38,616 bases of DNA from an uncultured Ignavibacteriota bacterium. GTDB lineage: Bacteria; Bacteroidota; Ignavibacteria; UBA10030; UBA8401. The notes below the pieces were generated by a model. It saw only the letters and a list, made by a program, of their open reading frames with translations, ran no database searches and had not been told where the DNA came from. The stretch covers positions 1-38,616 of the forward strand of contig CAJBTU010000078.1 in assembly GCA_903958625.1 (NCBI GenBank), read 5' to 3'. Shown here piece by piece: positions 828-27,118 of this stretch (position 1 is the first letter of the stretch; each line of letters begins with the position of its first letter). A program made the position numbers and the translations under genes.

Positions 828-1115
828 ATGATTCCGCGAATTTACATCGATACTTCAGTGATTGGAGGATACTTTGATCCGGAATTCGAAGAATTTACGA
901 AGCCTTTTTTTCAAAGAGTTTTGGACGATGAATTAAGGCTCATTTATTCAAGTATTACAGAAGAAGAATTGTCGAATGCTCCCGAACATGTGAAATAATT
1001 TATGCGCGATTTACCGGAAGACTCCATTGAGTATGTTGAAGTTTCTGGCGAGTCGACAGAATTGGCGATGGCTTATCTCAACGAAGGAGTTGTTGGAAAA
1101 TATGAAGAAGATTGA
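828..1115 (+). pseudogene. PIN-domain (VapC-like) protein interrupted by an in-frame TAA and 3' truncated
   Basis: MIPRIYIDTSVIGGYFDPEFEEFTKPFFQRVLDDELRLIYSSITEEELSNAPEHVK*FMRDLPEDSIEYVEVSGESTELAMAYLNEGVVGKYEED*: same frame continues after the stop at 996-998. Confidence 0.65.
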
Positions 1116-1281
1116 TTCATCAGATGAAAAGGCATTGGATGCAGTCCGATTTATGCGCCAAGCACGCGATAAGATCAGCAGAGACATAGCGAATCTTTCG
1201 AAAGAAGAAATTGTAGAATACTTTAAAAAAAATATTCCTAAAGAGCGGATTATTCCGAAGCATTCTTCGGTAACAGCATAA
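1102..1281 (+). CDS. Small antitoxin-like/hypothetical protein that pairs with the PIN remnant
   Basis: MKKIDSSDEKALDAVRFMRQARDKISRDIANLSKEEIVEYFKKNIPKERIIPKHSSVTA. Internal ATG at 1102 in the frame of ORF 1027-1281; overlaps the end of the PIN remnant. Confidence 0.45.
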   Translation: MKKIDSSDEKALDAVRFMRQARDKISRDIANLSKEEIVEYFKKNIPKERIIPKHSSVTA

Positions 1282-1291
1282 CTTAAAATAC

Positions 1292-1317
1292 AAGCCCCGC
1301 CATCTCTGACGGGGCTT
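1292..1317. terminator. Hairpin between convergent genes
   Basis: AAGCCCCG ... CGGGGCTT perfect 8-bp stem with 10-nt loop. Confidence 0.5.
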
Positions 1318-1323
1318 CCAATC

Positions 1324-1779
1324 TTAACAAACAACAATATCCCACCGATCCCAATAACCCTTGAACTCAGAAAGAGGAACGGCACACTTTAAACTCCCAA
1401 CGCCATCCTCAGAAGCATCAAGACTCGAATTCATAACAAAGATATGAGTAGTGGAATATCCATAGATCACAGCATAATGTTCGTCTGAACAGATACTGAT
1501 CAGTACAGGCGAACCTTTGTCGATTGCACTCTTCACATCACGAATTATCATCTTTGTTTTCGTCGTTACCTTCAATCCAACCTTCTTCATTGCTTGTTTG
1601 ATATCCAACGGGGAAGTCCCATCTTCATCAGCACCGGGTTGTTGCTCTACGGATTCATGGATGCATCGCTTGTTGAAATATTTCAAGATGATGAATGTGC
1701 TTCGACTTCACAGTAATATGAATTGAGTTGGATACTTCCTTGGGAAGTGAGGCAGAATCTTTGAATCAGGATATGGCAT
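1324..1779 (-). pseudogene. C39-like/papain-like cysteine peptidase remnant
   Basis: Upstream in-frame MPYPDSKILPHFPRKYPTQFILL* then SRSTFIILKYFNKR...DEDGTSPLDIKQAMKKVGLKV...GSPVLISICSDEHYAVIYGYSTTHIFVMNSSL. TGA and likely frame damage around the expected catalytic Cys (YYCEV in another frame). Confidence 0.55.
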
Positions 1780-1984
1780 GTCAATCCTAATATGAAAATG
1801 TAATTTACTATTTAAGATTTATTGGTCTGCTATTGCATGAACACCAATCATTAACACTTCGACAAAAACTTGTTGTGAATATTATTAATGTTTTCTTCAC
1901 CAAATACTTCTTATGTTACCTTATTGATTCAAAAATATATTTATCATCTTTTTATCTTTTTTCCACATAATCAAGGATACATTT

Positions 1985-2776
1985 ATGGCTGATTTTGAAA
2001 AACGTCTTTATATGATAGTCTTTCCGGTCAATGCGTTGGTCGCTTCGCAATTGAATCCGGTGCAGTTTGCAGAACATTATACGACCGGCAGTTCAAAACA
2101 CTTCAAAGGGAAAGTGATATTCGTTGAGATAGAGAATACATACCGCAACATGTATTTCGACATCGATCACTATTTATCCCTCACCGTTCCGCATCCGGAC
2201 GGCACACCGAAAAAAACGAAATTCATCTCGTCCTATGCCGTGCTGGAGCATATTGACCTGAAGGCGATGAAGAACATGTACCTTGTCACCACAAACGGCA
2301 AAGCGCTTGAGTTACAATCGCAGCCCTATACCGCAGTAAATGAGTCCGGTCTTGTGCGAATTTATCAGGAAATAACGCCGGTATCCAACCTTGTCGCCTC
2401 GACACTGGGTCAGCGTGAGTTCGGTAAATATCTGACGGTCGGAACAAAATCCAAAGGTGCGCCGAAAGTCTGCTTTACACAGTACGAGTTTGATGTGGAA
2501 GATTTCCATAAAAAGTATGCTGCGTCGCACATCCATTATTCCCCAATCCCAGAAACGAACTCTGCGCGATTGAATGAATATCTGACCGAATTGAAATCCC
2601 ATCCGGACAAGAAAACAAAGACGCTGAATTTGAATTCAACGCTGATCGCGACTTCGTATTCATTGATACGTCACGGGTTCTGGTTTGCGGCGGGGAACGA
2701 ACTGCTCTTCTATCCAATGCCGTCCGGAGATATGCTGAAGAAAGACCATTACGATTGGCTGAAACATTCGCATTGA
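1985..2776 (+). CDS. Hypothetical protein, 263 aa
   Basis: Intact ORF after an AT-rich leader, followed by a terminator hairpin; no family recognised. Confidence 0.7.
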   Translation: MADFEKRLYMIVFPVNALVASQLNPVQFAEHYTTGSSKHFKGKVIFVEIENTYRNMYFDIDHYLSLTVPHPDGTPKKTKFISSYAVLEHIDLKAMKNMYLVTTNGKALELQSQPYTAVNESGLVRIYQEITPVSNLVASTLGQREFGKYLTVGTKSKGAPKVCFTQYEFDVEDFHKKYAASHIHYSPIPETNSARLNEYLTELKSHPDKKTKTLNLNSTLIATSYSLIRHGFWFAAGNELLFYPMPSGDMLKKDHYDWLKHSH

Positions 2777-2814
2777 TGTATCCCGCCGGATATAATTCCG
2801 ACGGTCTGAAAAAT

Positions 2815-2850
2815 AAAACACCTTACAGTAACATTATGTGAGGTGTTTTT
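2815..2850 (+). terminator. Rho-independent terminator
   Basis: AAAACACCTtACA...TGTgAGGTGTTTTT stem ending in a T-run. Confidence 0.75.
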
Positions 2851-2917
2851 GTTTAATATATCGAGGCTTGTTACTTTAACAAACCCTATAGTAGAAATAT
2901 AAGTTTCACCAAAATAA

Positions 2918-2940
2918 AAACCCCAATATCATTGGGGTTT
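2918..2940 (-). terminator. Terminator of the minus-strand regulator gene
   Basis: AAACCCCAATatcATTGGGGTTT just beyond the stop at 2963; T-tract on minus strand. Confidence 0.75.
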
Positions 2941-2962
2941 AGTTGTGCAAAGTGCTAATCTA

Positions 2963-4222
2963 TTATCTGGTTCCGCTGGAATCATTCCCGTCCTGTTTTT
3001 TCAGGTTAAATGTCTTTTGTTCAAAGTGGGTGATATCGGCATTGAAAATAGCTTGGCTGATCCCTTCAGATTTAACGATGAGCGTAAAATAGAATGGTTC
3101 CGATATTTTTGTCTTTACCAGTTCTGTCTGGATCTTTATAAGCATCGATTTATCAACGGATGCGCGGGCGGCTTCCAATACCCCTGTGTCGGCAAAGCCG
3201 AGCATCAGCATAATGTTGCTGCCGTTCGGTCCTACTCCTTTTGTCAGCACCGAATAATCCTTTTCATATTTTCCCCCCTTCATTTCTCCCGGCCGATAGA
3301 CAATAATGGAATCCTCTCCGCGAGTCTTCAAATGAAATTCGTTCGGCGACAGTTGGTAGTCAATATCAAAGATGTGCAAGAATTTTTGTACGGCAAAAAG
3401 ATTCTTGAACGATCCGATGAAGATAATATTATTCGCCTTCAGATCTTCTACGGTGAATTCGGAGGCAAGTTTTAATGAATAACCGTTCGGTGAATGCTGC
3501 AGTACGGGAAGAATTTCGGCCAGACTCCAGCTTGCACTTGGACGTAGAAAAGTGAATTCGCTCTGAACATATTTTTCAGCGAATGTTGGATTGGTTCTGA
3601 TATACTGACGGTAATCTTCCGGAGTATTAAAGCGAAGATCCCGGACGAAATTCCCCAGCTTTCCTTCGGCACCGCGTTCAAACAAAAAATAAAAATCTCC
3701 CAGCACCACCAATGTTGGTTTTGCTCCCGGAGTAACGAACTCATGCCAGATGGGATTCTGTTCCAGCGGATTTTCCCTGAAGAGGGAGGGGAATGCGCGA
3801 TCGATAACGATGAAGGCGGCAAGGAAAACCAGAAGAACAGAAAGCGAGAGGATAATTAACCGGTGCTGCTTTTTCGTCCGGACAAAATTTTCTTTCTGAT
3901 CAATCTTCGTGAACTCAACTTCATAGTGTCCCTTGGGGATGTGTAGTTTATATACAGGAACACTGTCTGTCGTCAGATAATAGTGCTCCAGTTTTTTCCG
4001 AAGGTTGTTCAGGTATACACGGACCGTCGGGTCTTCTTTCGGATCAAAGCTGGAATCCTTGCTGAAGAACTGCATACCGATGGTGATCTCTTTAGGCACT
4101 TTACCGGAAAGAGTCTCTTCTACTAGGTAGGTCAGGAGTTCCTGAAACCGTTTTGAATCCTTAAATTCGGGACTTTGCAGGATTTCACCGAGGATCTGTA
4201 TTGCTAGTGCTCGTTCAACCAC
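2963..4222 (-). CDS. Membrane-anchored winged-helix-like regulator A: N-terminal wHTH-like domain, one TM, C-terminal extracytoplasmic domain
   Basis: ILQSPEFKDSKRFQELLTYLVEETL...FDPKEDPTVRVYLNNLRKKLEHYYL...IPKGHYEVEF matches the wHTH-like domain seen in ToxR/CadC-like and TPR proteins; TM segment RLIILSLSVLLVFLAAFIVI; paralogous to 37382-38611. Confidence 0.75.
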   Translation of the reverse strand: MVERALAIQILGEILQSPEFKDSKRFQELLTYLVEETLSGKVPKEITIGMQFFSKDSSFDPKEDPTVRVYLNNLRKKLEHYYLTTDSVPVYKLHIPKGHYEVEFTKIDQKENFVRTKKQHRLIILSLSVLLVFLAAFIVIDRAFPSLFRENPLEQNPIWHEFVTPGAKPTLVVLGDFYFLFERGAEGKLGNFVRDLRFNTPEDYRQYIRTNPTFAEKYVQSEFTFLRPSASWSLAEILPVLQHSPNGYSLKLASEFTVEDLKANNIIFIGSFKNLFAVQKFLHIFDIDYQLSPNEFHLKTRGEDSIIVYRPGEMKGGKYEKDYSVLTKGVGPNGSNIMLMLGFADTGVLEAARASVDKSMLIKIQTELVKTKISEPFYFTLIVKSEGISQAIFNADITHFEQKTFNLKKQDGNDSSGTR

Positions 4223-4359
4223 ATGGTTCTCCGGAATGGTACATCATCATCACAGTTCATTTGTGAAGAAACATAACTATTCAATTTCTTTTATGCAACA
4301 GGGATTGTCTCCGCGCCAATTACATATTGAAAAATGCTCAATGTTTTTATTGAAACGCC

Positions 4360-4396
4360 TGTTAATTAACATACCGGCAACCGTTCTTATCTTGTA
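4360..4396 (+). promoter_or_regulatory. Conserved upstream element, copy 1
   Basis: TGTTAATTAACATACCGGCAACCGTTCTTATCTTGTA; near-identical to 12921-12957; contains palindrome GTTAATTAAC. Confidence 0.75.
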
Positions 4397-4423
4397 ACCG
4401 CTCTTTAGAGTATCGTATTTTGA

Positions 4424-4450
4424 TGCATAAGTTTTTTAAAGTTTTATGCA
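4424..4450 (+). promoter_or_regulatory. Inverted repeat in the 5' leader of the 4479 gene
   Basis: TGCATAA (4424-4430) / TTATGCA (4444-4450), upstream of the ribosome-binding site. Confidence 0.35.
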
Positions 4451-4478
4451 AAAAAATACACTTAATTAAGGAGTAAAA

Positions 4479-7400
4479 ATGAAACGCATTTCTACAGTTG
4501 TCTTTATGATCGTTTGTTTTGGATTACTCACCATGAGTGCGTGGGGACAGTCTACTGTATTTTATGATAGTTTTAATCGTGCGGCTCTCTCTCCCGGCGG
4601 TGCACCGGCTATGACGTATAATACGCCGGTAAACACAAGCAATACCGGAGTGCCGATTATTGAATCTGCCAGTGCAACCGGTACAGTCCCATATTTTAAA
4701 CTTGTAACATATCTCAGCGCCGCAACAACGGCAGGTCAAAGTTATATGACGGGACCTTTGGCTTCGTTTTCAAGTCAATACAAACCGACTCTGTCATCCA
4801 ATACGGGCGTTGTTACGTGGTCGTTCAATATCCGTGAAAACCAAGGGACGATGAGCGGTCTCTTAAATACTCAACGGTACATCGGAGTAGTTCTGGCGGC
4901 TAGCGAGGCAGATCTCTTAAGTGCGACATGCCAGGGGTATATGATATCCCAGGGTGCAACAACAACAAGCGGACTTCAATTAGTAAAGTTTAGTGCCGGT
5001 CTCGGAAATGCCGCCACACCAACAACGATCATTTCTGCACCAACAGTGACTTCCGCTAAAGACTGGTTTAGTGTAAAAGTAACATATGAACCTTCTACCA
5101 ATACCTGGACGTTGTACCAAAGAACAGATGCGCTTAGCGCTACAATCGGATGGGCTGATCCATCAATCGGTACATTTACCTCGGTAAGCACACCAACAGT
5201 AGATGCTGATTATGTCGGTACACCAATGAGTGTATTTGGTTTCTTTGGAAATCATCCTGCAAGCAATACCGCGTTCAACTGTTTGTTTGATAATTTCAGA
5301 GTTCAGGTAAATGTGCCCGTGACCTGGACAACGGGTTGGCCGAAAGTTGAAAATACAACGCCGACCGGATTTACTGCAAAGGCAAAAACTGATGTTGCCG
5401 GTACGGCATACTATGTCGTTCTGCCGAGCGGCGCAACTGCTCCAACTTCGGCCCAGATAAAAGCCGGACAAAATGCCGCCGGAACAGCAGTAGCCGCAAA
5501 TGAAAAAGGTTCAATAGTCTGTGCTGATGCAATGGTGGAGTACTCTTCCGCCGTGACCGGTCTTTTAGGCACAACGACCTATAATGTTTATTTTGCTTCA
5601 GAAGATGCTGCGGGACAGAATTTACAGGATACTCCCGTAAAGGTTTCTGCAACAACAACAGCCAGTGCCACCGCGCCTCTCATTAATGAACCAACGGTAA
5701 GCGGAATAACAAACAATTCGTCTGTACTCGGGGGTAATATCACTTCGGATGGAGGAAGTTCTCTCACCGAACGAGGAACGGTATGGAAAATTTCAACCGG
5801 TGTAACAATTGCAGATAACAAATTAGCCGAAGGGAGTACTGGTACCGGCGTTTTCACTCACAGCCGTTCATCTCTGCCGGTCAAAACACAGATCTACTAT
5901 AAAGCGTATGCATCCAATGTTATTGGAACAACATTATCTTCCGAAGGAAATTTCTTCACGCTTGCCGATGAACCAATAAACCAGGTAACAAATTTTTCTG
6001 CTAACTCAACATCAAGCACATCTATTGATCTTTCTTGGAGTGCCGCAGCGGGTGCAGACGGCTATATTATTCTGCAGAAGAAAGGCAGCGCGGTTGCCCC
6101 CACCGGAACACCTGTTGATGCCAATGTATATCCTGTCGGCAGCTCTCTCGGCAATGGATTTGTCTCTGCATATATAACCTCCGGTTCTGGTACGTCTAAA
6201 ACTATAACCGGTCTTTTGCCGACTTCTATCTATGCTTTTATCATCATGGCGTATAACTCTGACGGAGTTAACTATCAAACGTATAACTACTTGTCAACAT
6301 TGGCCCCCACTGCTTCAGATACAACACTCGCACCATTGGCTCCAGGAATTCTTCTTGGCAAAACGACGGTCAATTTTGGGAACGTGAAAATTTCCGATAA
6401 AAAAACCGATACAATCTCAGTAACGAACAATGGGACCGATACACTCCGGGTATCAAGTATAAACGCATCGAACAGTATCTTCAGTATTTCGGATACCATG
6501 TTTAATTTGCGGCCATCCGGTGTTAAGTCTCTGGTTGTTTCATTTACGGCAAAGGATACCGGAACGATGGCCGGAAAATTTATCATCTCGCATAATGCAG
6601 GCACAGGGAAAGACACCATTCAGGTAACGGCATTCGGCGTATCGGTTAAAATATCGCTCGAAAAATTGGCAATGAATTTTGGCGGGATGGCAGTGGCTGC
6701 GCAGAAAAAAGACAGCGTTGTGGTCACCAACAGAGGAACAGCTGCCCTAACGGTTGATTCAGTGAAATCCGACAACGTGATGTTCACAGTTACTCCTGCC
6801 AATAGCGTTATTGCACCGTCCGGAACAGCAAAGTTCTACGTTACCTTCAGTCCCACAAGCGCCGGTGCTAAGACCGCCAACATTTTATTTTATAATAATT
6901 CACCAACAGTGAAAGATACTGTCAAAGTAAGCGGAACTGGCGTAGCCGGCGCATTCTATACTGAGGACTTTACCTCGTCGGCCAGTACGGCATTAACATC
7001 AGCCGGATGGACCATTAGTGGAACGTCTGTCGTCAGTCCTATTACGATCACCGCTCCGGGATTATCGATAGGGAAGTATTCCGGTTCGGGCGTAGGCAAT
7101 GCGGCAACGCTCACCACCACCGGTCAGGATGTATTCGCCGGTTTCCCGTCCATCAATGCGGGAACAGTGTATCTTTCGTTTATGATGAATGTTGCAAGCG
7201 CAGGAACAGGTGATTATTTCATAGCACTATCACCGGCTTCATCGCAGACCAACTATTATGCACGTTTGCATATTAAGACATCGGGAACAGGATATGTTCT
7301 TGGCATCAGCAAGAGCAACGAGGTATCCGGAGGAGCTCAGTATGGCACTACCGTATTGAGTTTTAACAATACCGCGCTTGTCGTAGTGAAGTACACATTT

Positions 7401-7958
7401 ACTGTGGCGGATACAACAAATGATCCAATCAGCGTGTATGCATTCACATCAACAATACCGACAACGGAACCGGCTACGGCGGAGATTGCTTCTTATGTTG
7501 TGGCAACAAAATCCGACGCATCCGATCTTGGAAACATAACGCTGCGTCAGGGTTCAACAGGTGCAGCTCCGGCATTGGTCATCGACGGATTACGTGTTGG
7601 TACGACATGGGCGCTGGGTGTTCCGAGTGCAGTGACGGATATGTTTTCCGGTATACCGACGGTGTATGAACTGCAGAATAATTATCCGAATCCGTTCAAC
7701 CCGTCAACCACGATCCAATATGGTTTACCGAAACAGAGCAATGTAACGGTAAAGATATATTCGATATTGGGACAAGAGGTGAAGACGCTGGTGAATGATG
7801 TTCAGAATCCGAGCTATTACCGAGTAGTATGGAACGGAACGAACAGCAATGGAAAATTGGTTGGAAGCGGGATCTATTTTGTCCGCATCACAGCACAATC
7901 GAATGAACCGAACAGCAAACCGTTCATTCAGGTAAAGAAGATGTTATTAATGAAATAG
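4479..7958 (+). CDS. Large secreted multidomain protein (LamG/beta-sandwich-like, FN3, choice-of-anchor D-like domains) with T9SS type A sorting domain
   Basis: Signal peptide MKRISTVVFMIVCFGLLTMSAWGQS; FN3 region; repeats like VNFGNVKISDKKTDTISVTNNGTDTL; C-term ELQNNYPNPFNPSTTIQYGLPKQSNVTVKIYSILGQEVKTLVN; SD aaggag. Confidence 0.85.
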   Translation: MKRISTVVFMIVCFGLLTMSAWGQSTVFYDSFNRAALSPGGAPAMTYNTPVNTSNTGVPIIESASATGTVPYFKLVTYLSAATTAGQSYMTGPLASFSSQYKPTLSSNTGVVTWSFNIRENQGTMSGLLNTQRYIGVVLAASEADLLSATCQGYMISQGATTTSGLQLVKFSAGLGNAATPTTIISAPTVTSAKDWFSVKVTYEPSTNTWTLYQRTDALSATIGWADPSIGTFTSVSTPTVDADYVGTPMSVFGFFGNHPASNTAFNCLFDNFRVQVNVPVTWTTGWPKVENTTPTGFTAKAKTDVAGTAYYVVLPSGATAPTSAQIKAGQNAAGTAVAANEKGSIVCADAMVEYSSAVTGLLGTTTYNVYFASEDAAGQNLQDTPVKVSATTTASATAPLINEPTVSGITNNSSVLGGNITSDGGSSLTERGTVWKISTGVTIADNKLAEGSTGTGVFTHSRSSLPVKTQIYYKAYASNVIGTTLSSEGNFFTLADEPINQVTNFSANSTSSTSIDLSWSAAAGADGYIILQKKGSAVAPTGTPVDANVYPVGSSLGNGFVSAYITSGSGTSKTITGLLPTSIYAFIIMAYNSDGVNYQTYNYLSTLAPTASDTTLAPLAPGILLGKTTVNFGNVKISDKKTDTISVTNNGTDTLRVSSINASNSIFSISDTMFNLRPSGVKSLVVSFTAKDTGTMAGKFIISHNAGTGKDTIQVTAFGVSVKISLEKLAMNFGGMAVAAQKKDSVVVTNRGTAALTVDSVKSDNVMFTVTPANSVIAPSGTAKFYVTFSPTSAGAKTANILFYNNSPTVKDTVKVSGTGVAGAFYTEDFTSSASTALTSAGWTISGTSVVSPITITAPGLSIGKYSGSGVGNAATLTTTGQDVFAGFPSINAGTVYLSFMMNVASAGTGDYFIALSPASSQTNYYARLHIKTSGTGYVLGISKSNEVSGGAQYGTTVLSFNNTALVVVKYTFTVADTTNDPISVYAFTSTIPTTEPATAEIASYVVATKSDASDLGNITLRQGSTGAAPALVIDGLRVGTTWALGVPSAVTDMFSGIPTVYELQNNYPNPFNPSTTIQYGLPKQSNVTVKIYSILGQEVKTLVNDVQNPSYYRVVWNGTNSNGKLVGSGIYFVRITAQSNEPNSKPFIQVKKMLLMK

Positions 7959-7973
7959 TATTCAGTTTAAACA

Positions 7974-7998
7974 AACCCCGCTGAGTTTTAGCGGGGTT
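7974..7998 (+). terminator. Terminator-like hairpin
   Basis: AACCCCGCT-gagtttt-AGCGGGGTT perfect stem just after stop at 7958; no strong T-run follows. Confidence 0.6.
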
Positions 7999-8023
7999 GA
8001 TCATGAAGTAAATAGTTTTAATT

Positions 8024-8060
8024 GATGAAAGGGGAGAGCCCTCTTTCATCGACCTTTTTT
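8024..8060 (+). terminator. Second tandem Rho-independent terminator or attenuator
   Basis: GATGAAAGgGG-agag-CCctCTTTCATC followed by GACCTTTTTT, about 18 nt before the next start codon. Confidence 0.65.
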
Positions 8061-8077
8061 CTCAACCTCGGTTAATA

Positions 8078-8983
8078 ATGGTAATCATTCGGTACGCAAC
8101 GGTCATGTGTTTGTTATTCAGTATAACATCTGCACAACCATCACATCGTCCATTGAGTTCTCCTCTCTATGGACAAGTGAACGTTGAGAGTGATATTCTC
8201 TATGGACAAAGCATTGGCGTCAATGATTCCATCGTCAACCTACTCCTTGATGTTTATACCGGTACGGGAGATACGGCACAACAGCGTCCTTTAGTATTAT
8301 TTATCCACGGCGGCGGTTTCAAAAATGGGAACAAGGTTCTTAAGATGAGCAAACTGTTCTGTTCCCGTTTTGCGAAGTGCGGTTTTGTTGCGGCATCCAT
8401 CAACTACCGTCTTTCTCAATCGATACGGTCGAACGATGAATACTTTGCGGCCATGATTCACGCGGTGCAGGATGCAAAAGCAGCAGTGCGGTTCTTTAGA
8501 AAGAATGCCGTCCGGTTTATGATTGATACGTCAAAAATATTTGTCATGGGTACATCGGCTGGTGCAATCACCGCACTGCATATGGCCTATCTTGATCAGA
8601 ATGAATTTCCGACATCGGTCGACGTGAAAAAGACCGGTACCCTTGAAGGAAACAGCGGGAACCCGGGATACTCATCCGCTATTCACGGCGTTATTAATTG
8701 CTGGGGTGCAATGGCGGATTTTCGCTGGATTCAAAATGGAAATGTGCCGGTCTTTAATATCCACGGCGTATGTGATTCCACCATTGCGTTCGATTCTTCC
8801 TTCTCGTATAAGGCATTCAAATACGGCAGTACAGTTATTCATGACCGCGCATTGAAAGTGGGAGTCAAATCAGGATTACGACTGTTTTATCAAACCGGAC
8901 ACACATTGGATAATGATCCGGTCAAACAGGACAGCGCGGCAAATGATATTACAGATTGGCTTTCAAAGATTATTCAAAACTGA
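8078..8983 (+). CDS. Secreted alpha/beta-hydrolase, carbohydrate esterase/feruloyl-esterase-like
   Basis: PLVLFIHGGGFKNG oxyanion motif, GTSAGA nucleophile elbow, GHTLDND His region. Confidence 0.8.
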   Translation: MVIIRYATVMCLLFSITSAQPSHRPLSSPLYGQVNVESDILYGQSIGVNDSIVNLLLDVYTGTGDTAQQRPLVLFIHGGGFKNGNKVLKMSKLFCSRFAKCGFVAASINYRLSQSIRSNDEYFAAMIHAVQDAKAAVRFFRKNAVRFMIDTSKIFVMGTSAGAITALHMAYLDQNEFPTSVDVKKTGTLEGNSGNPGYSSAIHGVINCWGAMADFRWIQNGNVPVFNIHGVCDSTIAFDSSFSYKAFKYGSTVIHDRALKVGVKSGLRLFYQTGHTLDNDPVKQDSAANDITDWLSKIIQN

Positions 8984-9079
8984 TATTCACATATTTGAAA
9001 TATGACGCCGTCAAACAGTGAATAAACAAAGATGTTTTTTTGATTGGAACAGTAGTGTGCCCCGAAGGGATGTAAGAAA

Positions 9080-10498
9080 ATGAAAACAATACGTACTATA
9101 TCAATCGTTGCTATCATTCTTTTTGCAATGATCCTTCCGTCATTTTTAGCGGCGCAGGAAGAAATTATAGTGAAGGCGAAGAAAAAGATCTACCATGCCG
9201 ATGGATCACGGTCGTATGGCGATTGGAAGGAATACCAGACTCAACGCATAGAAAATTTAACAGGATTTATTCCGAAGAAAGAACCTTCCTATTCCCGGTA
9301 CGGAGGAAGACTTGATACTCGTGTTGAATCGACCGGATTCTTTTATCCCAAAAAAATTGAAGGGCGATGGTGGCTTATTGATCCGGACGGTTATTTATTC
9401 ATTCACAAAGCCATTGTTACTGTGAAGCCGGGTACATCGTCAAATCAAAACTCCGTAGTTGCAAAAAAATTCGGTGATACGAAAAAATGGCTCGATTCAA
9501 CGTCCCGGCTTTTATCATCGACCGGATTTAACGGTACCGGTAACTGGTCCGATGCAGATCTGGTAAAAGAGTCACCGATTCCGCTTGTCTATACACGCGG
9601 TTTCAACTTTATGTCGGCGTACGGAAAAAAACGGGGAGGCACGTATCAACAACCCGGCCACACGGGATATCCCAACGATCTGATCTTTGTCTTCGATCCT
9701 GAATTTGCCCTGTTCTGCGATACGGAAGCGGCCGATGCACTTGCTTACAAAAACGAAAAAAATCTTCTCGGATATTTTTCCGATAATGAAATGCCGTTTC
9801 CCGATAACGCGCTGGACCGGTACTTATCGCTCGATCCAAAAGATCCGGGATACCAGGAAGCATCACGATGGCTCACGTCAAAAAGAGTAGAGCAACAATC
9901 ACGGAAGGAAATCACGAACGAAGAGAGAAGTGCATTCCTGGCCTATATGTCGGACAGATATTTTTCCATCGTTTCGAAAGCGATAAAAAAATATGATCCC
10001 AACCATCTCTATTTAGGATGCCGGTTTCATGGGGACATTATCAGAAAACAACCGGTATTCGAAAGTGCCGGCAAATATATGGATGCTGTTTCGGTGAATT
10101 ATTACGATGTGTGGACGCCGGAGAACGACCGTCTTCAGAAATGGGCCGAATGGTCCGGAAAACCGATCCTCATCACCGAATGGTATACCAAAGGGGAGGA
10201 TTCAGGATTGAAGAACCAGACCGGCGCTGGATGGATAGTGCCGACACAAAAAGACCGCGGATATTTCTATCAGAATTTTACCCTGGCGCTGCTCGAATCA
10301 AAAGTTGTGGTGGGATGGCACTGGTTCAAATATCAGGACAATGATCCGAACGATAAGACGGCCGATCCTTCGAACGCCGATGCGAATAAAGGGATCGTTG
10401 ATAATAATTTTACGCCTTACTATCCCTTACTGCAGGAGATGAAAGAAATAAATACCAACGTGTACAGCATCATCGATTACTTTGACGCAAAAAAATAA
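9080..10498 (+). CDS. Secreted clan GH-A-like TIM-barrel glycoside hydrolase (agarase/GH50-like annotation tentative)
   Basis: Signal peptide; GRWWLIDPDGYLFIHKAI; GYFSDNEMPF (candidate acid/base E); PILITEWYTKGEDSG (candidate nucleophile E). Confidence 0.6.
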   Translation: MKTIRTISIVAIILFAMILPSFLAAQEEIIVKAKKKIYHADGSRSYGDWKEYQTQRIENLTGFIPKKEPSYSRYGGRLDTRVESTGFFYPKKIEGRWWLIDPDGYLFIHKAIVTVKPGTSSNQNSVVAKKFGDTKKWLDSTSRLLSSTGFNGTGNWSDADLVKESPIPLVYTRGFNFMSAYGKKRGGTYQQPGHTGYPNDLIFVFDPEFALFCDTEAADALAYKNEKNLLGYFSDNEMPFPDNALDRYLSLDPKDPGYQEASRWLTSKRVEQQSRKEITNEERSAFLAYMSDRYFSIVSKAIKKYDPNHLYLGCRFHGDIIRKQPVFESAGKYMDAVSVNYYDVWTPENDRLQKWAEWSGKPILITEWYTKGEDSGLKNQTGAGWIVPTQKDRGYFYQNFTLALLESKVVVGWHWFKYQDNDPNDKTADPSNADANKGIVDNNFTPYYPLLQEMKEINTNVYSIIDYFDAKK

Positions 10499-10512
10499 AG
10501 CGAGCATTCCCA

Positions 10513-12891
10513 ATGAACAAATTAATATTCATCCTTCTTTTTCTCTTTGCTGCGGTCTCTGTTGCCCAAAAAAATATTCCTGCAGGAAATCCGATCTACC
10601 ATGAGGGATGGAACGATCTCAACAAGAACGGGAAAATGGACCCTTATGAGAATTCCAAACTTCCTGTTGAACAGCGGATCAAAAACCTGCTGAGCTTGAT
10701 GACGCTGAATGAAAAGACAAATCAAATGGCAACACTGTACGGTTACGGCAGGGTATTGAAAGATGAACTGCCGACCGCAGGGTGGAAGAATGAAATATGG
10801 AAAGACGGCATCGCAAATATAGACGAACATCTGAATGGACTTGACAGACCGAATACAAAAACTGAATATTCATGGCCGCCGTCAAAACATGCCGGAGCCA
10901 TCAATGAAACTCAACGGTTCTTTATTGAAGAAACCCGTCTCGGCATTCCGGTTGATTTTTCAAACGAGGGGAACAGAGGATTGTGTCAACATGGTGCAAC
11001 AGCGTTCCCTTCACAGCTTGGCGTTGGCGCAACATGGGATGTCGATCTTGTTGCTCGCATTGGTGCAATTACCGGCAAGGAAGCAAAGATTCTTGGCTAT
11101 AGTAATGTGTATTCCCCTATTCTGGATCTTGCGCGCGATCCCCGGTGGGGCAGAGTGGTGGAATGTTATGGAGAAGATCCTTTTCATATTTCGCGATTAG
11201 GGGTTGCGCAGGTTAAAGGAATTCAGGAGCAGCATGTTGCGGCGACCGTGAAGCACTTTGCCGTTTACAGTGTTCCCAAAGGCGGACGGGACGGCGAGGC
11301 CCGCACCGATCCTCATGTTGCCCCGCGCGAAGTTGAGACCATGTATCTTGCACCATTCAAAGCGGCGTTTGTTGAAGCGAAGGCGCTCGGAACCATGAGT
11401 TCCTATAATGATTATGACGGCGTTCCAATTACCGGCAGCAGCGATTTTTTGATCAAAAAATTGAGGAAAGAATGGGGGTTTAACGGCTATGTGGTTTCGG
11501 ACAGCAAGGCGGTTGAATATCTTTATACAAAACACCATGTTGCGAAAGATCAAAAAGATGCCGTTCGTCAGTCGGTACAAGCCGGTCTGAATGTTCGGAC
11601 CGAATTCACCCCTCCGGATGATTTCATCCTTCCGCTGCGGGAATTGGTGAAGGAAGGTACTATTCCTCAAAAGATGCTGGATGAACGTGTTGCCGATGTC
11701 CTGCGTGTAAAATTTCTTTTAGGGTTATTTGATCAACCCTATGTTCAGCATCCGGAACTTGCCGATACAATAGTTGGATCAGCAGAGAATCAAAAAGTAT
11801 CGCTGGAAGCATCGCGCAAATCGATCGTGTTGCTGAAGAATGCCGGTCAGATCTTACCGCTGAAAAAAAACATCCGTTCAATTCTGGTCACCGGACCGAA
11901 TGCTGCCGCAACAAAATCATCTGTGAGTCGATATGGCCCGAACAGAATTGATGTCGTTTCGATTCTTGAAGGGTTGAAGCGTAAAGCAGGTGATTCAACA
12001 CAAATTAAATATACAAAAGGGTGCGAGCTTGTTGATGCGAACTGGCCGCAGAGCGAAATACTTCCATCACCGATGTCCGTTGAAGAAAAAGAGGAAATCG
12101 AAAAAGCTAAAGCATTGGCAAAGACGGTTGATGCGGCGATTGTTGTTGTCGGCGACGATGAACGGATCGTGGGCGAATCAAAATCGAGAACAAGTCTTGA
12201 TCTTCCCGGTTATCAGCTCGATCTGGTAAAAGCAATCTACGAAACCGGCGTGCCGACGATTGTTGTTTTAATCAATGGCCGTCCGATGACCATTAACTGG
12301 ATAGATAAATATGTTCCGGCTATCGTTGAAGCGTGGTTCCCAGGAAAATGGGGAGGCGATGCAGTAGCCGATGTTCTCTTCGGTGATTATAATCCGGGTG
12401 GAAAACTTCCCATCACATTTCCAAAAACCGTTGGTCAGGTGCCGTTAAATTTTCCCTATAAGCCGGGATCCGACATCGGTGATCCGACGTCGGTCTGTGA
12501 TGTGCTATATCCTTTTGGTTTTGGATTGAGCTATACGGAGTTTAAATATTCAAATCTTTCCATTACACCGTTAAAGCATTTGATGGACGGGAATGTTGAA
12601 GTTTCGTGTGATATCGAAAACACGGGGAGCATGGATGGCGAAGAAGTTGCACAATTGTACGTTCATGATGAAACAAGCAGCGTTACGACGTACGTGAAAA
12701 ATCTGCGCGGATTTCAGCGGATATTCGTACCGAAAGGGAAGAAAACACACGTCCGTTTCGTTCTTTCTCCTGCAGATTTTTCGCTACTGGACCGGAACAA
12801 TACCGTTGTTGTAGAGCCCGGTCTGTTTACGGTAATGATCGGAAGTTCTTCTGTGGACATACGGCTTACGGAAAAATTCATGCTAAAATAG
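10513..12891 (+). CDS. Glycoside hydrolase family 3 (beta-glucosidase/xylosidase-like)
   Basis: SPILDLARDPRWGRVVECYGEDP, VKHFAVY, GFNGYVVSDSKAVEYLY (nucleophile Asp), C-terminal FN3-like domain. Confidence 0.92.
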   Translation: MNKLIFILLFLFAAVSVAQKNIPAGNPIYHEGWNDLNKNGKMDPYENSKLPVEQRIKNLLSLMTLNEKTNQMATLYGYGRVLKDELPTAGWKNEIWKDGIANIDEHLNGLDRPNTKTEYSWPPSKHAGAINETQRFFIEETRLGIPVDFSNEGNRGLCQHGATAFPSQLGVGATWDVDLVARIGAITGKEAKILGYSNVYSPILDLARDPRWGRVVECYGEDPFHISRLGVAQVKGIQEQHVAATVKHFAVYSVPKGGRDGEARTDPHVAPREVETMYLAPFKAAFVEAKALGTMSSYNDYDGVPITGSSDFLIKKLRKEWGFNGYVVSDSKAVEYLYTKHHVAKDQKDAVRQSVQAGLNVRTEFTPPDDFILPLRELVKEGTIPQKMLDERVADVLRVKFLLGLFDQPYVQHPELADTIVGSAENQKVSLEASRKSIVLLKNAGQILPLKKNIRSILVTGPNAAATKSSVSRYGPNRIDVVSILEGLKRKAGDSTQIKYTKGCELVDANWPQSEILPSPMSVEEKEEIEKAKALAKTVDAAIVVVGDDERIVGESKSRTSLDLPGYQLDLVKAIYETGVPTIVVLINGRPMTINWIDKYVPAIVEAWFPGKWGGDAVADVLFGDYNPGGKLPITFPKTVGQVPLNFPYKPGSDIGDPTSVCDVLYPFGFGLSYTEFKYSNLSITPLKHLMDGNVEVSCDIENTGSMDGEEVAQLYVHDETSSVTTYVKNLRGFQRIFVPKGKKTHVRFVLSPADFSLLDRNNTVVVEPGLFTVMIGSSSVDIRLTEKFMLK

Positions 12892-12920
12892 GCAAAAAAC
12901 AGGCTTTTTAAGCAATTACA

Positions 12921-12957
12921 TGTTAATTAACGTTCCTGCAACCGTTCTTATCTTGTA
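12921..12957 (+). promoter_or_regulatory. Conserved upstream element, copy 2
   Basis: TGTTAATTAACGTTCCTGCAACCGTTCTTATCTTGTA; 3 mismatches to 4360-4396. Confidence 0.75.
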
Positions 12958-13015
12958 TTACAGCATTAACAGAATTATTTTAGTTTAGAAAATTATCGGG
13001 TAATTATGTATTCGA

Positions 13016-13165
13016 GACATCTGAAAAATCTCACATCAATGTCATTCCGAGGAGTGAAGCGACGAGGAATCTCAATCTTCTACTCAAATAGAAGAACAAG
13101 ATTCTTCGCTTGCCCCTTCGGGGCTTCGCTCAGAATGACAATGGACAACCTATTTTTCAGATGTC
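13016..13165. repeat. Palindromic interspersed repeat (REP/MITE-like)
   Basis: Outer arms GACATCTGAAAAAT (13016-13029) / ATTTTTCAGATGTC (13152-13165), with the common inner element TGTCATTCCGAGgagtgaagcgacGAGGAATCT...AGATTCTTCGC...GGCTTCGCTCAGAATGACA. Confidence 0.75.
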
Positions 13166-16100
13166 ACTATTCAGATATTTGGAAAGCCAAAATATCTCCA
13201 AAGAATGCCGTATTCTTCCTTCTTTTGCTGTCGAATTTTCTTTGCGGATTTCTTCTCGCTGAAAACGCAGGTAAAATTTCCGGTACAATTAAAGATAAAA
13301 CGAACAGCGAACCGCTTGTCGGTGCGACAGTCGTTCTGAAAGGAACAAAACTTGGTGGCATCACTGACGTTGCCGGTGATTATTATATTTTAAATGTCCC
13401 CCCCGGTACGTACAATGTCACAGCATCGATCGTCGGGTATGGAAAAGTAACACAAACGGAGGTTCTGGTACGGATCGATCAGACAACAACACTCAATTTC
13501 CGGCTGGCGGAAGAGGTTGTTGAGGCAGAGGGCGTTACCATTGTTGCAGAAAAACCGAAGGTTGAACTCGATCTCACCGCAAGTAAAGCAACCGTATCAC
13601 GCGAAGAGATCTCGAACGGATGGGTGAAGGATATCAAAGATGTTATCACCGACCAATCATCAACAAATATCAATGGAGGCATTCGCGGAAGTTTCGGCGG
13701 CGATGTTTCATATCGTGTGGACGGCCTCGATCTTCGTGATGTTGGTTCGAACACCAATTTTTCTTCGGTGAATCTATCCACCGTTCAGGCGATCGAAGTT
13801 TTGACGGGAGGATGGAACGCCGAATACGGACAGGCGAACGGCGCGATCGTTAATATTGTTTCACGAAAAGCGACCGACAAGATCCATGCCGTTGCAACGT
13901 ATAAGTCGAGGCCTTCCGGTAAATATCATTGGGGAAGAAACATCTACGATAAGAATGATGTGTTCCATACCGTGATGGCAACACCGGAATTTTGGGATAC
14001 ATCAAAAACGTGGCGGACGCAGTGGATGGCTCCGGGTGAATCGCAAAAGGGGAATCTCGGAGACGGAAAATTTGCAAAAATGACTCCGCAGGAAAAGGCG
14101 GACTGGTGGAAGAATTTCATCAATGACAGCAAACGGTTCCCGCAATTCGATTATGCCGACAGAGCGGAATGGGAACAGGAAGTAACGATCTATGGTCCAA
14201 TTCTGCCCGAACTGAATTTTTTGGTTTCCGGCCGGTATAAAGAAGGAGTTGGTATTTATCCCTCCGCATTAAAGTACAATCCCGACATGACATTACAGGG
14301 ATCACTAGACTGGTCGCCGGTAAGTACAACAATGGTCAGTTTCAACGGCATGTTCACAAAATTCGAAAATTCCGGCGCTCCCAGGACCAATTATCAATCA
14401 TCCGAAACGATTGTTGCCGACAACGCGTCTCAAACGTTGCCGTTCATTGACGATCCGTATAACAAATATAAATTTTGGTTTTATGGACCGTCGAATAACG
14501 GCGGAAGTTTCGGCGACGGCAGCACGATCCGGGCCCCCGAACGCGCTCAACTGATGAATGTCCAAGCAAAGCTTACGCAGGTTTTTACTCCCGAAACATT
14601 TCTGAACATGGCCTTCCAGCATAGCCAGATGCAATACAATCTTGATTTTCGTGATATTGCGCAGACAGCACAATTTGCTGCGTTTGGATTTCCTTCACCG
14701 ACGGATTCCGTTCTTTCGTACGGCGTATGGCTGACCTCATTCGGGAAACCGCCGACTTCGAATTTGTTCGACTCCCAACGGTGGGGATATGCCGGAGATA
14801 TTTGGAGGAGTGAATCGAGAACGAAGAATTACAGCGTCAAGGCAGATCTTACAAGTCAGATCACCAAAGCGCATCTGGTGAAATCAGGTTTTATCTTTTC
14901 TTTGCAGGAGATAAAGACATTCATTCACGAAGGAAATATTCAATCGGCCCCCTACGTGCAGGTGAACGACATTATTCCGATCGTCGATCATCCGTACGAA
15001 GGTGCCGGATACATTCAGGATAAAATTGAGGTCGGCGGGATGGTGCTGAATGCCGGTATCCGTTTCGACTTCTTCAATGCGAATAAAAATGTTGCGGCAG
15101 ATTTCTACGATCCGTTGATGATCTCGGAATACACACTTGGAAATTCGGGAAAGACCGGACTGATCGGATACCGTCCGGGCGGAAGCGGTGCGGCGTATGT
15201 AAAAACTCCCACACGATATGCATTCTCACCCCGCATCGGAATTTCACATCCCATCACTGAAACAACGGTGCTGCACTTCATGTTTGGAATTTTCAATCAG
15301 CGTCCGTCATGGGTAAAGATGCTTTCCAATCCTGTTGTCTGGACGGATAACAGGGCCAGCGGAAATCTTGATGACCTGATCAAAGCGAACAAACTTAACT
15401 CGGACCTTGGTCTTCCCGATACGCTCCTGGTAACGTACCGGTATCTTGGCGCGAAAGTCGGGAACCCTTCGTTAACATGGGAAAAAATGACGCAGTATGA
15501 GGTTGGTATCGTGCAGAATATTGAGGATCTCGTGATGATTGAAGCAACAATGTATTACAAAGAGGGAAAAGATCTTACCTCTCTTGGAATAGATCAGGGT
15601 CCGGCTACTGGTGAGATAAAACAATCGGGCGGCAATGTAGATGTCCGTTTATATGGAGACCCGTTCCAGGCGGACAACAGAGATCCCGGCAAGTATATCG
15701 GGAACTTCACGACCACAGTGAACGGAGCCTGGGCAGATGTTCGCGGTATCGAAATGAAAATGAAATCACAATTCCGCTGGATCAATGTTGAACTTGCCTA
15801 TACGCTTTCCTATTTGGCCACCGGCCGGTATCACGACAGTAAATTATTCAAACTATCCTCTCTCACAGGAAAACAACTGGCCGACAATGTTTTTGCCGGT
15901 GCAAATAATACTGATGGCGGCGGTATCGGCGTGAATGATATGTTGTGGAATCCGAGTAATTCCGGAATGATAAAGCTTACGATGAACAGCCCGGAAGATT
16001 TTGGCCCATCCATTATGGAATTTTATCCGTTTGGAAGCTGGGTGGTCAGTTCCTCCACCCGATGGGTGCGGGGCAATGAATTTACTTGGTATCCCACCGA

Positions 16101-16398
16101 TTTTCAGGATATCAAACTTCCGAATAACAGACGGTGGGAAGACCGTTGGAATACCAATATGAATATCAGCAAAAATATTCATCTCGCCGACAATATTTCA
16201 TTCAAATTGTTTATTCAGGTAACGAATCTATTCAACGAAAAACATCTTGTTCAATTCAGCGAAGGTTCAACATCACTGAATAATTATATGGCAAATAATA
16301 TTCTTCCGTTCCAATCAACAACAAAGGAGCCGACGGAATGGAATTGGTACACTAATAATCCGCGGCAGATATATTTTGGTACAACGGTCGAATTTTAA
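13141..16398 (+). CDS. TonB-dependent outer-membrane receptor with carboxypeptidase-regulatory-like N-terminal domain (ORF track start 13006 probably too far upstream)
   Basis: GKISGTIKDKTNSEPLVGATVVLKGTKLGGITDVAGDYYILNVPPGTYNV; plug region DVSYRVDGLDLRD...VLTGGWNAEYGQANGAIVNIVSR; C-terminal FGTTVEF. Confidence 0.88.
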   Translation: MDNLFFRCHYSDIWKAKISPKNAVFFLLLLSNFLCGFLLAENAGKISGTIKDKTNSEPLVGATVVLKGTKLGGITDVAGDYYILNVPPGTYNVTASIVGYGKVTQTEVLVRIDQTTTLNFRLAEEVVEAEGVTIVAEKPKVELDLTASKATVSREEISNGWVKDIKDVITDQSSTNINGGIRGSFGGDVSYRVDGLDLRDVGSNTNFSSVNLSTVQAIEVLTGGWNAEYGQANGAIVNIVSRKATDKIHAVATYKSRPSGKYHWGRNIYDKNDVFHTVMATPEFWDTSKTWRTQWMAPGESQKGNLGDGKFAKMTPQEKADWWKNFINDSKRFPQFDYADRAEWEQEVTIYGPILPELNFLVSGRYKEGVGIYPSALKYNPDMTLQGSLDWSPVSTTMVSFNGMFTKFENSGAPRTNYQSSETIVADNASQTLPFIDDPYNKYKFWFYGPSNNGGSFGDGSTIRAPERAQLMNVQAKLTQVFTPETFLNMAFQHSQMQYNLDFRDIAQTAQFAAFGFPSPTDSVLSYGVWLTSFGKPPTSNLFDSQRWGYAGDIWRSESRTKNYSVKADLTSQITKAHLVKSGFIFSLQEIKTFIHEGNIQSAPYVQVNDIIPIVDHPYEGAGYIQDKIEVGGMVLNAGIRFDFFNANKNVAADFYDPLMISEYTLGNSGKTGLIGYRPGGSGAAYVKTPTRYAFSPRIGISHPITETTVLHFMFGIFNQRPSWVKMLSNPVVWTDNRASGNLDDLIKANKLNSDLGLPDTLLVTYRYLGAKVGNPSLTWEKMTQYEVGIVQNIEDLVMIEATMYYKEGKDLTSLGIDQGPATGEIKQSGGNVDVRLYGDPFQADNRDPGKYIGNFTTTVNGAWADVRGIEMKMKSQFRWINVELAYTLSYLATGRYHDSKLFKLSSLTGKQLADNVFAGANNTDGGGIGVNDMLWNPSNSGMIKLTMNSPEDFGPSIMEFYPFGSWVVSSSTRWVRGNEFTWYPTDFQDIKLPNNRRWEDRWNTNMNISKNIHLADNISFKLFIQVTNLFNEKHLVQFSEGSTSLNNYMANNILPFQSTTKEPTEWNWYTNNPRQIYFGTTVEF

Positions 16399-16421
16399 TC
16401 TTTCTTAACAGAGGCTGTGAA

Positions 16422-18503
16422 GTGAATATCAATTTGAAAGAGCATGTTTGTGCAACGATGGTGAAGCTAATGGTAGCCGTGATGTTTGCGTCTTCTTCAC
16501 TGTTTGCGCAAAGCGTCAATCCTGAAAGATTGACGCGTACAAAATATTGGGTCAAGACGGCACCGAATGGCGCTCTGGACAGAGAAACAACGATTGGAAA
16601 TAATCAGTGGCTCTCTCTTTATCCCGGCGATTACAATGCGCAGGGTGAATCAGCAGGTGGCTGGGATGCGAATGTGATCTATAACGGAGCGATGGTGGCC
16701 GGACAACCTGTTGGCTGGTATTACAGAAGCGTGCAATATAACAGCCCCAATGTGTATGCCATTTCCCAAACAGCGGTCACACAAAACTATAATCTCGTCA
16801 ATCCCCTGCGCGCAGAAGAATATCTCACCGGAGATATCGGTTCGTATCAGTTCGACGGAGCGGGGAAGAGGCATATGAAGTATACGCTCTCCGGTATAGT
16901 ACGGGTGTGGAGCCAGCCGAAGTACGATGACTTTGTGATCATGGAATGCACGCTTACCAATACCGATGATACCACGTTCAACGATTTTTATTACGCACGG
17001 CTCGTCACTCCGAACGGCCCGTACCGGCCTTCGTCCGTTTCTGTTGGATGGGACAAGGAGTATGAATGGGATACGGTGATGGGAGATACTCTTGGATATA
17101 TTTTTTATGATGGAACATCGCTTCCTCCAACAACAACTGCTCCCGTCTATTCCATTCCTCCCGGTGATTCAACGGGCAATGCCGGTGATCCCGGGAATAT
17201 CGGCGTGCAGGGGTCCAGAAATTACAAACTCTATTCACCGTACGTGTATGCCTATACTTTTTTCATCGATTCGCTTCCGAAAAATAAATTCGGCGAGAAA
17301 AAAATATGGCGTAAAATTGTGTCGACAGACAGCAGGGCAGCTGCATTGGAACTTTTGCCTCCGCGCTACGACGACGGGCTGGGTCAATACAGTACGCTGG
17401 TGAACTTTATTACCACCAATGAACAACCGAAGACAAGCTGGAAAAACGGCGCCGATTCGGGAATCGTCGGTGCAGGCAGCAAATGGGAAAGAAATCCGCG
17501 GTATCTCTATGCGATCGGTCCGTTTGATATTAAAAAGGGTGAATCGATCCATTGGTATGAGATCTTTGCGGCCGGACAAATGGACCGCAATATTTCTATG
17601 AAAGGCGGATATGAAGCCACACGGCGGTTTAAATCCGAAGGTATCACAAATCTTAAAGAGAATTTTCGTGCGGCAAAAAGTTTGATCCGGGGGAAATTTG
17701 CGCTGCCGTTCGGAACAGTTCCTCCTCCGACACCGGCCGATGCACCGCGTATCGGAAATACCAATGAACTCAAAGTCATTCCTTATGCGATCAATGTAAA
17801 CAACCAAAGAGTGCAGGGAGTTCAGGTTTCATGGATGGGAGTTCACAAAGGATATAAAGATCCGCAGACAAAACAAGCGGATTTTGCCGCATACAAAATT
17901 TATAAATCGACCAATTCCATCGAAGGTCCGTGGGAGATGATCGATTCGATCCATGTTTCGCGTTTTGATTCGCTGAAAACCTCGGTCGACAGTTCGTATG
18001 TCGTCATCGATTCGGTATCGAGTACGGGTGCGTTTCCGTTCGTTAAATATTTCATTAAAGCGGAACCCAATGTGCCGTACCGGTACTGTGTAACGAGCAT
18101 CGACAAGACGGGCAATGAAAGCGGAATGACCGGATATTGTTTCTACCCGGTATCGGCAGAACCTCCGCCGACCAATCAACAAAAACAGATTCTTGTCGTC
18201 CCGAATCCGTTCCGGCAGGTGAGCGGTTTTGCCGAAAGCGCAGAGTATAAACGAATTGCCTTTGTGAATATTCCGGCACTCTGCACGATAAGAATCTATA
18301 CACTTGCATTGGACCTTGTAAAAACTCTGGAGCATACGAGCGGCGGTGGAATTGAAACATGGGGTTCTCAATCCGGAAAAGATTATATGCTCACCGATTT
18401 TGCCCAAAATGTTCAGCCCGGCATCTACATCTTTCATGTGGAGTCGCACGTTCCCGGACACGAAGGGGAAACATCGGTTGGTAAAATAGCGATCATTAAA
18501 TAG
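16422..18503 (+). CDS. Secreted protein with degenerate T9SS/FlgD-like C-terminal domain, partner of TonB receptor
   Basis: Signal peptide; C-term ILVVPNPFRQ...IRIYTLALDLVKTLEH...PGIYIFHVES...GKIAIIK; 23 bp after receptor stop. Confidence 0.75.
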   Translation: MNINLKEHVCATMVKLMVAVMFASSSLFAQSVNPERLTRTKYWVKTAPNGALDRETTIGNNQWLSLYPGDYNAQGESAGGWDANVIYNGAMVAGQPVGWYYRSVQYNSPNVYAISQTAVTQNYNLVNPLRAEEYLTGDIGSYQFDGAGKRHMKYTLSGIVRVWSQPKYDDFVIMECTLTNTDDTTFNDFYYARLVTPNGPYRPSSVSVGWDKEYEWDTVMGDTLGYIFYDGTSLPPTTTAPVYSIPPGDSTGNAGDPGNIGVQGSRNYKLYSPYVYAYTFFIDSLPKNKFGEKKIWRKIVSTDSRAAALELLPPRYDDGLGQYSTLVNFITTNEQPKTSWKNGADSGIVGAGSKWERNPRYLYAIGPFDIKKGESIHWYEIFAAGQMDRNISMKGGYEATRRFKSEGITNLKENFRAAKSLIRGKFALPFGTVPPPTPADAPRIGNTNELKVIPYAINVNNQRVQGVQVSWMGVHKGYKDPQTKQADFAAYKIYKSTNSIEGPWEMIDSIHVSRFDSLKTSVDSSYVVIDSVSSTGAFPFVKYFIKAEPNVPYRYCVTSIDKTGNESGMTGYCFYPVSAEPPPTNQQKQILVVPNPFRQVSGFAESAEYKRIAFVNIPALCTIRIYTLALDLVKTLEHTSGGGIETWGSQSGKDYMLTDFAQNVQPGIYIFHVESHVPGHEGETSVGKIAIIK

Positions 18504-18516
18504 CGGTCATTCACAG

Positions 18517-19596: not shown

Positions 19597-19643
19597 TATC
19601 AATTTTTAATCGAAATGAACATTTATTCAATAAGGAGGTAATC

Positions 19644-22784: not shown

Positions 22785-22801
22785 GATCTTCACAAAATAC
22801 A

Positions 22802-22843
22802 GGAGCCATCAAAGAGATTTTGGTGGCTCTTGTCCTTTTTATC
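22802..22843 (+). terminator. Terminator-like hairpin
   Basis: GGAGCCAtc...gTGGCTCttgtccTTTTT just after stop. Confidence 0.6.
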
Positions 22844-22870
22844 GCTTGCCAATAGAAAACATCCTCGATC

Positions 22871-24860: not shown

Positions 24861-24969
24861 TTCTGGAGTGTATTGCCAGTAATATACTGTTTAATACTGA
24901 AATCTCCGGTGAAGGTTTGCGTTATTATATTACGAAATTAAGTTTTTCTCACTAAGAACAGGTCATAAA

Positions 24970-25815: not shown

Positions 25816-25919
25816 GGAACGTGTAACATGATGTTCCCTTTATTGTGCGGGCCAAGAACCGGCGGCACTAGTAAAACAGAAAAAATATTTTCTATAAATA
25901 TTATTTAAAGGAGCTAACA

Positions 25920-26999: not shown

Positions 27000-27020
27000 G
27001 TTTTTTGAAATAATTTCGTG

Positions 27021-27046
27021 ACGCCGTTGAATGTGACCAACGGCGT
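27021..27046. other. Intercistronic perfect stem-loop without T-run
   Basis: ACGCCGTTG-aatgtgac-CAACGGCGT between the kinase and LarA-like genes. Confidence 0.6.
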
Positions 27047-27118
27047 TGCCGAAGTTATTACAGCAGTTTCCAAAATATTGCGCTATCAAAGCAGACGTGG
27101 AAGAAAGTTTAGAATCCT

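Follow-up and report, generated by a model that had tools for sequence, protein, structure and literature searches.

Regulator A, encoded at positions 2963-4222 (minus strand) of the window, i.e., the whole 38,616-nucleotide stretch of DNA that was analysed, is likely an activator of transcription, of the membrane-tethered one-component kind, that is dedicated to a polysaccharide-utilization locus (PUL). The gene has a GTG start and encodes 419 aa: residues 1-106 form a wHTH-like domain, residues 117-143 one TM helix and residues from about 156 to 406 an extracytoplasmic alpha/beta sensor. A paralog with the same architecture and 36% identity to A, regulator B, is located at the contig end (37382-38611, minus strand), and these two are the only full copies of the regulator in the genome. 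Regulator A was found to be kept end to end, with 95% identity in a genome of the same genus and 36-56% identity in other genomes. Considering this full-length conservation and the existence of a full-length paralog, it may be concluded that regulator A is a real gene. All of the motifs listed for this ORF in the sequence-only reading were located, including PTLVVLGDFYFL at residues 169-180, NNIIFIGSFKNL at 264-275, GGKYEKDYSVL at 316-326 and NIMLMLGFADTGVLEAA at 336-352.

A scan of the genome collection yielded 36 loci, and 33 full-length members (A and B of the window and the members from 31 loci) were aligned. The family occurred in Ignavibacteria (Ignavibacteriales), candidate division KSB1, Calditrichia, one proteobacterium and Bryobacterales (Acidobacteriota), the relatives from the last group being more distant (15-17% identity in the sensor). 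Its distribution was patchy: 14 of the 298 sampled genomes of the phylum gave matches, and even among close relatives only 6 of 41 genomes did so. Fifteen additional, more distant members were also found, and in most of them the upstream gene was again divergent.

The AlphaFold2 model of full-length regulator A was confident (pLDDT 87); it begins with helices at the N-terminus and continues through a wHTH core and the TM helix (117-143) to an extracytoplasmic alpha/beta domain. The core contains three helices (H24-38, H45-52 and H66-84), including the recognition helix, and a beta-hairpin wing (E91-94/E103-106), with a pLDDT of about 83-96. The four-stranded beta-sheet found at the N-terminus of OmpR/ToxR-type domains was absent from this model, which opens with helix H4-15. 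At E<0.01, Pfam Trans_reg_C (PF00486) matched 22 of the 33 family members, the best at 7.3e-5. Regulator A itself scored far under the curated cut-off (E=0.19), and B reached E 5.7e-4 (20.3 vs 26.2 bits). The best PDB profile matches were DNA-binding response regulators (E 0.03-0.2; top 0.027). The modelled core and the matches in these 22 members support the earlier assignment of the N-terminus to a ToxR/CadC-like wHTH, A itself being below the threshold, and the inner end of regulator A probably binds DNA.

A single hydrophobic helix was detected in regulator A at residues 122-140, with a positively charged flank on its N-side. Net positive charge precedes the hydrophobic segment in both A and B, and exactly one such segment was present in 32 of the 33 aligned members. 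One TM segment after the N-terminal domain had been proposed from the sequence, and this agrees with the observed helix and the predicted topology. By prediction, therefore, regulator A follows the plan of ToxR-like receptors, with the N-terminus inside, a single TM helix and a C-terminal periplasmic domain.

The sensor is an alpha/beta domain of approximately 250 aa, and when it was modelled alone by AlphaFold2, a pLDDT of 90.4 and a pTM of 0.89 were obtained. Searches of Pfam, NCBIfam and PDB sequences gave no matches for it, in agreement with the earlier reading, in which no known sensor family was recognised for it. Foldseek was rerun with the sensor only, because in the full-length model the wHTH and TM parts lowered the TM values. 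The top structural match was the periplasmic cellulose-synthase subunit BcsB (E 3e-3, probability 0.99, TM 0.38-0.42), which is made of carbohydrate-binding-like and flavodoxin-like domains (PMC11379886), and the second was the N-terminal domain of GH67 alpha-glucuronidase (E 1e-2, probability 0.98). The TM-score to BcsB and the GH67/GH115 N-terminal domains did not exceed 0.42 of the sensor. In profile alignments, GH67N scored best (19.5, P=0.056), followed by GH115N (18.3) and BcsB (12.8); unrelated controls scored 10.5-15.9 and reversed GH67N 13.7. In the GH67N alignment, IIFIGSFKNL and LMLGFADTGVLEA fall in corresponding places. Given this P value and these TM-scores, homology to GH67N, GH115N or BcsB is not claimed, and the likeness of the modelled sensor to BcsB and the GH67 N-terminal domain is a weak lead. 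Because these fold matches are weak, the case for sugar binding rests on genomic context, which favours a glycan as the putative ligand. Of the two signals previously suggested for the sensor, a glycan or an envelope state, only the former thus gained ground, and no support was found for the latter.

This context was consistent across the family. In all 29 complete non-acidobacterial loci, the regulator was divergent from an upstream glycan-related gene, and in 18 of them this partner was a TonB-dependent receptor (SusC-like). In two acidobacterial relatives, the regulator gene was located immediately upstream of a TonB-receptor-type barrel, in the same direction. A binomial estimate for 17/28 TonB partners was 2e-25 with shared ancestry ignored; the loci do share ancestry, so their counts are not independent. 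Since there are only about 29-47 CarboxypepD_reg genes per genome, the pairing with TonB receptors is far beyond chance even with shared ancestry allowed for. By its genomic position, the family would thus fall in the functional class of PUL regulators: the gene is divergent from or within SusC-type loci, and predicted operators stand before susC.

The frequency of the receptor as a neighbour also bears on the nature of the ligand. By analogy with FecR/ECF systems, it could suit a sensor that binds a protein rather than a sugar, be it the TonB receptor itself, a lipoprotein of the envelope or a component of secretion, and BcsB, which the sensor model resembles, also contacts proteins. However, the regulators of the other 11 loci face GH2 (2), GH43, GH88 (2), a chondroitinase-B-type lyase, a sulfatase, an MFS sugar transporter or T9SS-type proteins (3), and the receptors diverge to 16-30% identity across loci while the sensor stays related. 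A protein ligand is therefore possible but rather doubtful, and a glycan remains the favoured one.

In the window, regulator A faces a plus-strand cluster of 20 genes (4479-37323). The first of them, which is its first predicted target (4479-7958), encodes a secreted protein of 1159 aa that carries both Ig domains of the ASH/HYDIN type and a T9SS sorting domain, so that the divergent gene had been correctly recognized as T9SS. The Ig domains of this protein are tandem HYDIN_VesB_CFA65 and Cep192 domains, names that otherwise come from eukaryotic cilium/centrosome proteins. The next genes (8078-12891, plus strand) encode a BD-FAE esterase, an unknown 472-aa protein and a GH3 enzyme, and they are followed by a SusC-like TonB-dependent receptor with CarboxypepD_reg and Plug domains (13006-16398, plus strand). 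On the 3' side of the receptor, two unknown proteins (693 and 359 aa), a T9SS esterase and a T9SS protein are encoded (16422-24697, plus strand). The genes of the 693- and 359-aa proteins (16422-19596) had no Pfam matches and also occur behind the SusC-like gene in loci L045, L046, L048, L054, L056, L057, L058 and L062; their position suggests that the pair is an unrecognised SusD-like surface glycan binder and its partner.

A putative uronate-catabolic/transport operon is located farther downstream (24970-37323, plus strand) and encodes SDR, PfkB, Lar_N-like, 6PGD, 2-HADH, UxaC, ECF component, MFS, PfkB, GFO/IDH and GDSL proteins. The match of the protein at 27119-28390 to the lactate-racemase N-terminal domain was weak. 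No intact ORF for the GDSL esterase gene beside regulator B (36598-37323) was found in the same-genus genome G004 (L104, 18129-18533). In G004, which is syntenic, regulator B faces a gene for a 959-aa SusC-like protein. The counterpart in the genome of the window is contig C216, so that by synteny the regulator B of the window would face a SusC-like gene on this contig. Positions 1000-18747 of this contig (L102, G000:C216) contain a sulfated-glycan PUL with four sulfatases, a chondroitinase-B-type lyase and a radical-SAM/SPASM protein, the latter being possibly a sulfatase-maturing enzyme.

An unsupervised motif search of the divergent regions revealed a shared 40-bp motif (log-likelihood 291 vs 118-134 for shuffled sequences). 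When the groups were considered separately, the log-likelihood was 147 for A (98-103 shuffled) and 282 for B (104-115 shuffled), and the two versions independently showed a direct-repeat period of 21 bp, i.e., two helical turns. The window was scored with PWMs trained without its sequence against a null of 100 Markov-simulated windows. Two predicted A operators were found on the minus strand: operator 1, ACAAGATAAGAACGGTTGCCGGTATGTTAATTAACAGGCG (4356-4395, score 22.2), and operator 2, ACAAGATAAGAACGGTTGCAGGAACGTTAATTAACATGTA (12917-12956, score 24.4), which lies between the GH3 gene and the SusC-like gene, outside the divergent regions used for motif discovery. The next best site scored 7.2, and the null maximum was 12.8. 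Across the 4-Mb genome, the 17-bp A core was matched without mismatch at just two places, 4378-4394 and 12939-12955 of the window. A predicted B-type operator, TCAGTATTAAACAGTATATTACTGGCAATACACTCCAGAA (24861-24900, minus strand), was found 5' of the uronate-catabolic operon with a score of 16.6 (null maximum 11.6); its counterpart in G004 scored 14.6.

In the sequence-only reading, regulator A had been suggested to act on the intergenic region 4223-4478 and to drive the divergent T9SS gene. A predicted operator (operator 1) was found in this region, which measured 256 bp rather than the 257 bp given before. The T9SS gene proved to be only part of the predicted target, however, which is the whole PUL, with the second, near-identical operator at the SusC-like gene.

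Operators were also recognized outside the window. Held-out loci L045, L053 and L063 gave scores of 23-28, and L047 contained a half-match to the A operator (4.3); the operator of L048 was left unscored, as the recorded sequence has N in its central part. Contig C216 contained two B-type operators, at 18812 and 8442; one precedes the SusC-like gene and one the radical-SAM gene. The A and B matrices revealed no recognisable operator in the distant members L068, L070, L072, L020 and L033. Among the 15 more distant members, L019, L021, L022 and L023 matched one matrix significantly and most of the others had no match, which indicates that the operator changes as members become more distant. An A-type operator (score 23) was also observed 5' of a GH39-like gene in genome G012 (L107, G012:C64:58000-72999, at 7587-7626), on a contig other than that of the A-type regulator of this genome; the GH39-like gene is a candidate unlinked regulon member.

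A box of the form TAnnTT is like the -7 element of Bacteroidota. Such a box was found 19-20 bp past the operator edge on the PUL side at 16 of 27 sites, compared with at most 2 sites at other offsets, none at the equal offset on the regulator side and a maximum of 6 after shuffling. In the window, the candidate -7 boxes are TATTTTG (4416-4422, plus strand), 20 bp past operator 1 toward the PUL, and TATTTTAG (12976-12983, plus strand), 19 bp past operator 2. For operators remote from regulator genes, the polarity toward the downstream gene was unchanged.

The same protein and operators could also serve repression of the PUL that is released by ligand binding. The operator overlaps the -33 region, which can suit repressors, and geometry alone leaves the sign of regulation unfixed. 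However, a fixed spacing (here 19-20 bp to TAnnTT) together with a constant polarity typically marks activators that substitute for the -35 contact, and SusR, a published one-component PUL regulator, is an activator (PMC3878776). Repression by regulator A is therefore unlikely, and activation is the preferred reading.

Natural chimeras connected the operator with the DNA-binding domain. In L054, L055, L056 and L058, the wHTH fell in clade B (support 0.977), and the sensor fell in clade A (0.827; nested 0.993). The B PWM fitted the operators of these loci (0/300 shuffles each), whereas the A PWM did not (p 0.3-0.6). Because regulators with a B-type wHTH carry B-type operators, operator type tracks wHTH type, as direct binding predicts. 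The sequences of these four loci also provide evidence of apparent domain swapping among PUL regulators. The motif adjoins a promoter-like box, and it might be the site of another factor, e.g., an ECF sigma promoter, to which the regulator is merely adjacent. Since the motif type follows the wHTH type, the chimeras included, and since, within genomes, motifs of a given paralog type are found together with regulator genes of that type, this explanation appears highly unlikely compared with direct binding by the regulator.

Sensing of envelope stress or redox state as in ToxR/CadC, which the general ToxR-like architecture would allow, deserves hardly any credence, because the A and B sensors contain no cysteine (0-3 across the rest of the family), which argues against disulfide sensing of the ToxR/CadC type, and the neighbours examined were glycan genes only, with no stress genes.

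The following mechanism is proposed for regulator A as a PUL activator. The periplasmic alpha/beta domain would sense either a ligand derived from a glycan or the state of the machinery that imports glycans, and the signal would cross the single TM helix to the cytoplasmic wHTH domain. This domain, probably as a head-to-tail (tandem) dimer, would bind the direct-repeat operator of approximately 40 bp, which abuts the promoter with its -7-like box 19-20 bp away, and the bound protein would replace the -33 contact so that transcription of the PUL is turned on. We infer the DNA binding, the dimerisation, the activation rather than repression and the sugar ligand in this scheme. Regulator A would control two units, that of the T9SS protein, esterase and GH3 (at 4479) and that of the SusC-like gene (at 13006), thereby switching on capture and outer-membrane functions, and regulator B would switch on the uronate-catabolic operon at 24970 and the neighbouring sulfated-glycan PUL.

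Transmembrane transcription regulators are an already described broad class (PMC10269533), and the predicted plan of regulator A agrees with that of ToxR/CadC: an N-terminal cytoplasmic wHTH-like domain, a single TM helix and a C-terminal periplasmic domain. It differs from them in that its wHTH is only remotely similar and is modelled without the N-terminal beta-sheet, its sensor is another one, cysteine-free in A and B, and it is dedicated to PULs. With the BcsB periplasmic domains and the GH67/GH115 N-terminal domain, the sensor shares likeness in structure only, with no significant sequence similarity.

Among PUL regulators, three kinds that are specific to Bacteroidetes (the SusR-like one, hybrid two-component systems or HTCS, and ECF/anti-sigma) were named in a comparative B. 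thetaiotaomicron study (PMC3878776). The HTCS and the ECF-sigma/FecR anti-sigma pairs resemble A in that they control PULs in Bacteroidota, but no kinase, receiver, AraC, Reg_prop or FecR domain was found by Pfam in A or its family; Reg_prop and FecR proteins occur elsewhere in the source genome. No report of the A family, or of a wHTH-type PUL regulator, was found in the open-access literature. The A family is probably a fourth, undescribed class of PUL regulators, with an N-terminal wHTH, a single TM helix, a new sensor and a 21-bp direct-repeat operator, present in Bacteroidota (Ignavibacteria and others), KSB1, Calditrichia and Acidobacteriota, with sensor and DNA-binding domains swapped between PULs. 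If so, an undescribed class of control proteins would switch on complex-sugar digestion in environmental bacteria, and its readable operator would make PUL regulons predictable directly from genomes, for uncultured Ignavibacteria and KSB1 as well as for related groups from the environment. The family would also define a new sensor domain outside the cytoplasm, with a possible evolutionary link to domains of the carbohydrate machinery, and the natural chimeras would mean that sensor and output are recombinable.

Like regulator A, the SusR-like regulators of Bacteroides are one-component inner-membrane proteins with a periplasmic sensor, a tie to the SusC locus, direct-repeat operators and two spaced sites (PMC3878776). 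However, SusR has as its DNA-binding domain a C-terminal HTH that resembles no known family, whereas the C-terminal part of A is an unrelated, extracytoplasmic alpha/beta sensor, preceded by one TM helix and an N-terminal wHTH. The A family works most like SusR, yet it is not a member of the SusR group, as its DNA-binding domain is N-terminal and winged.
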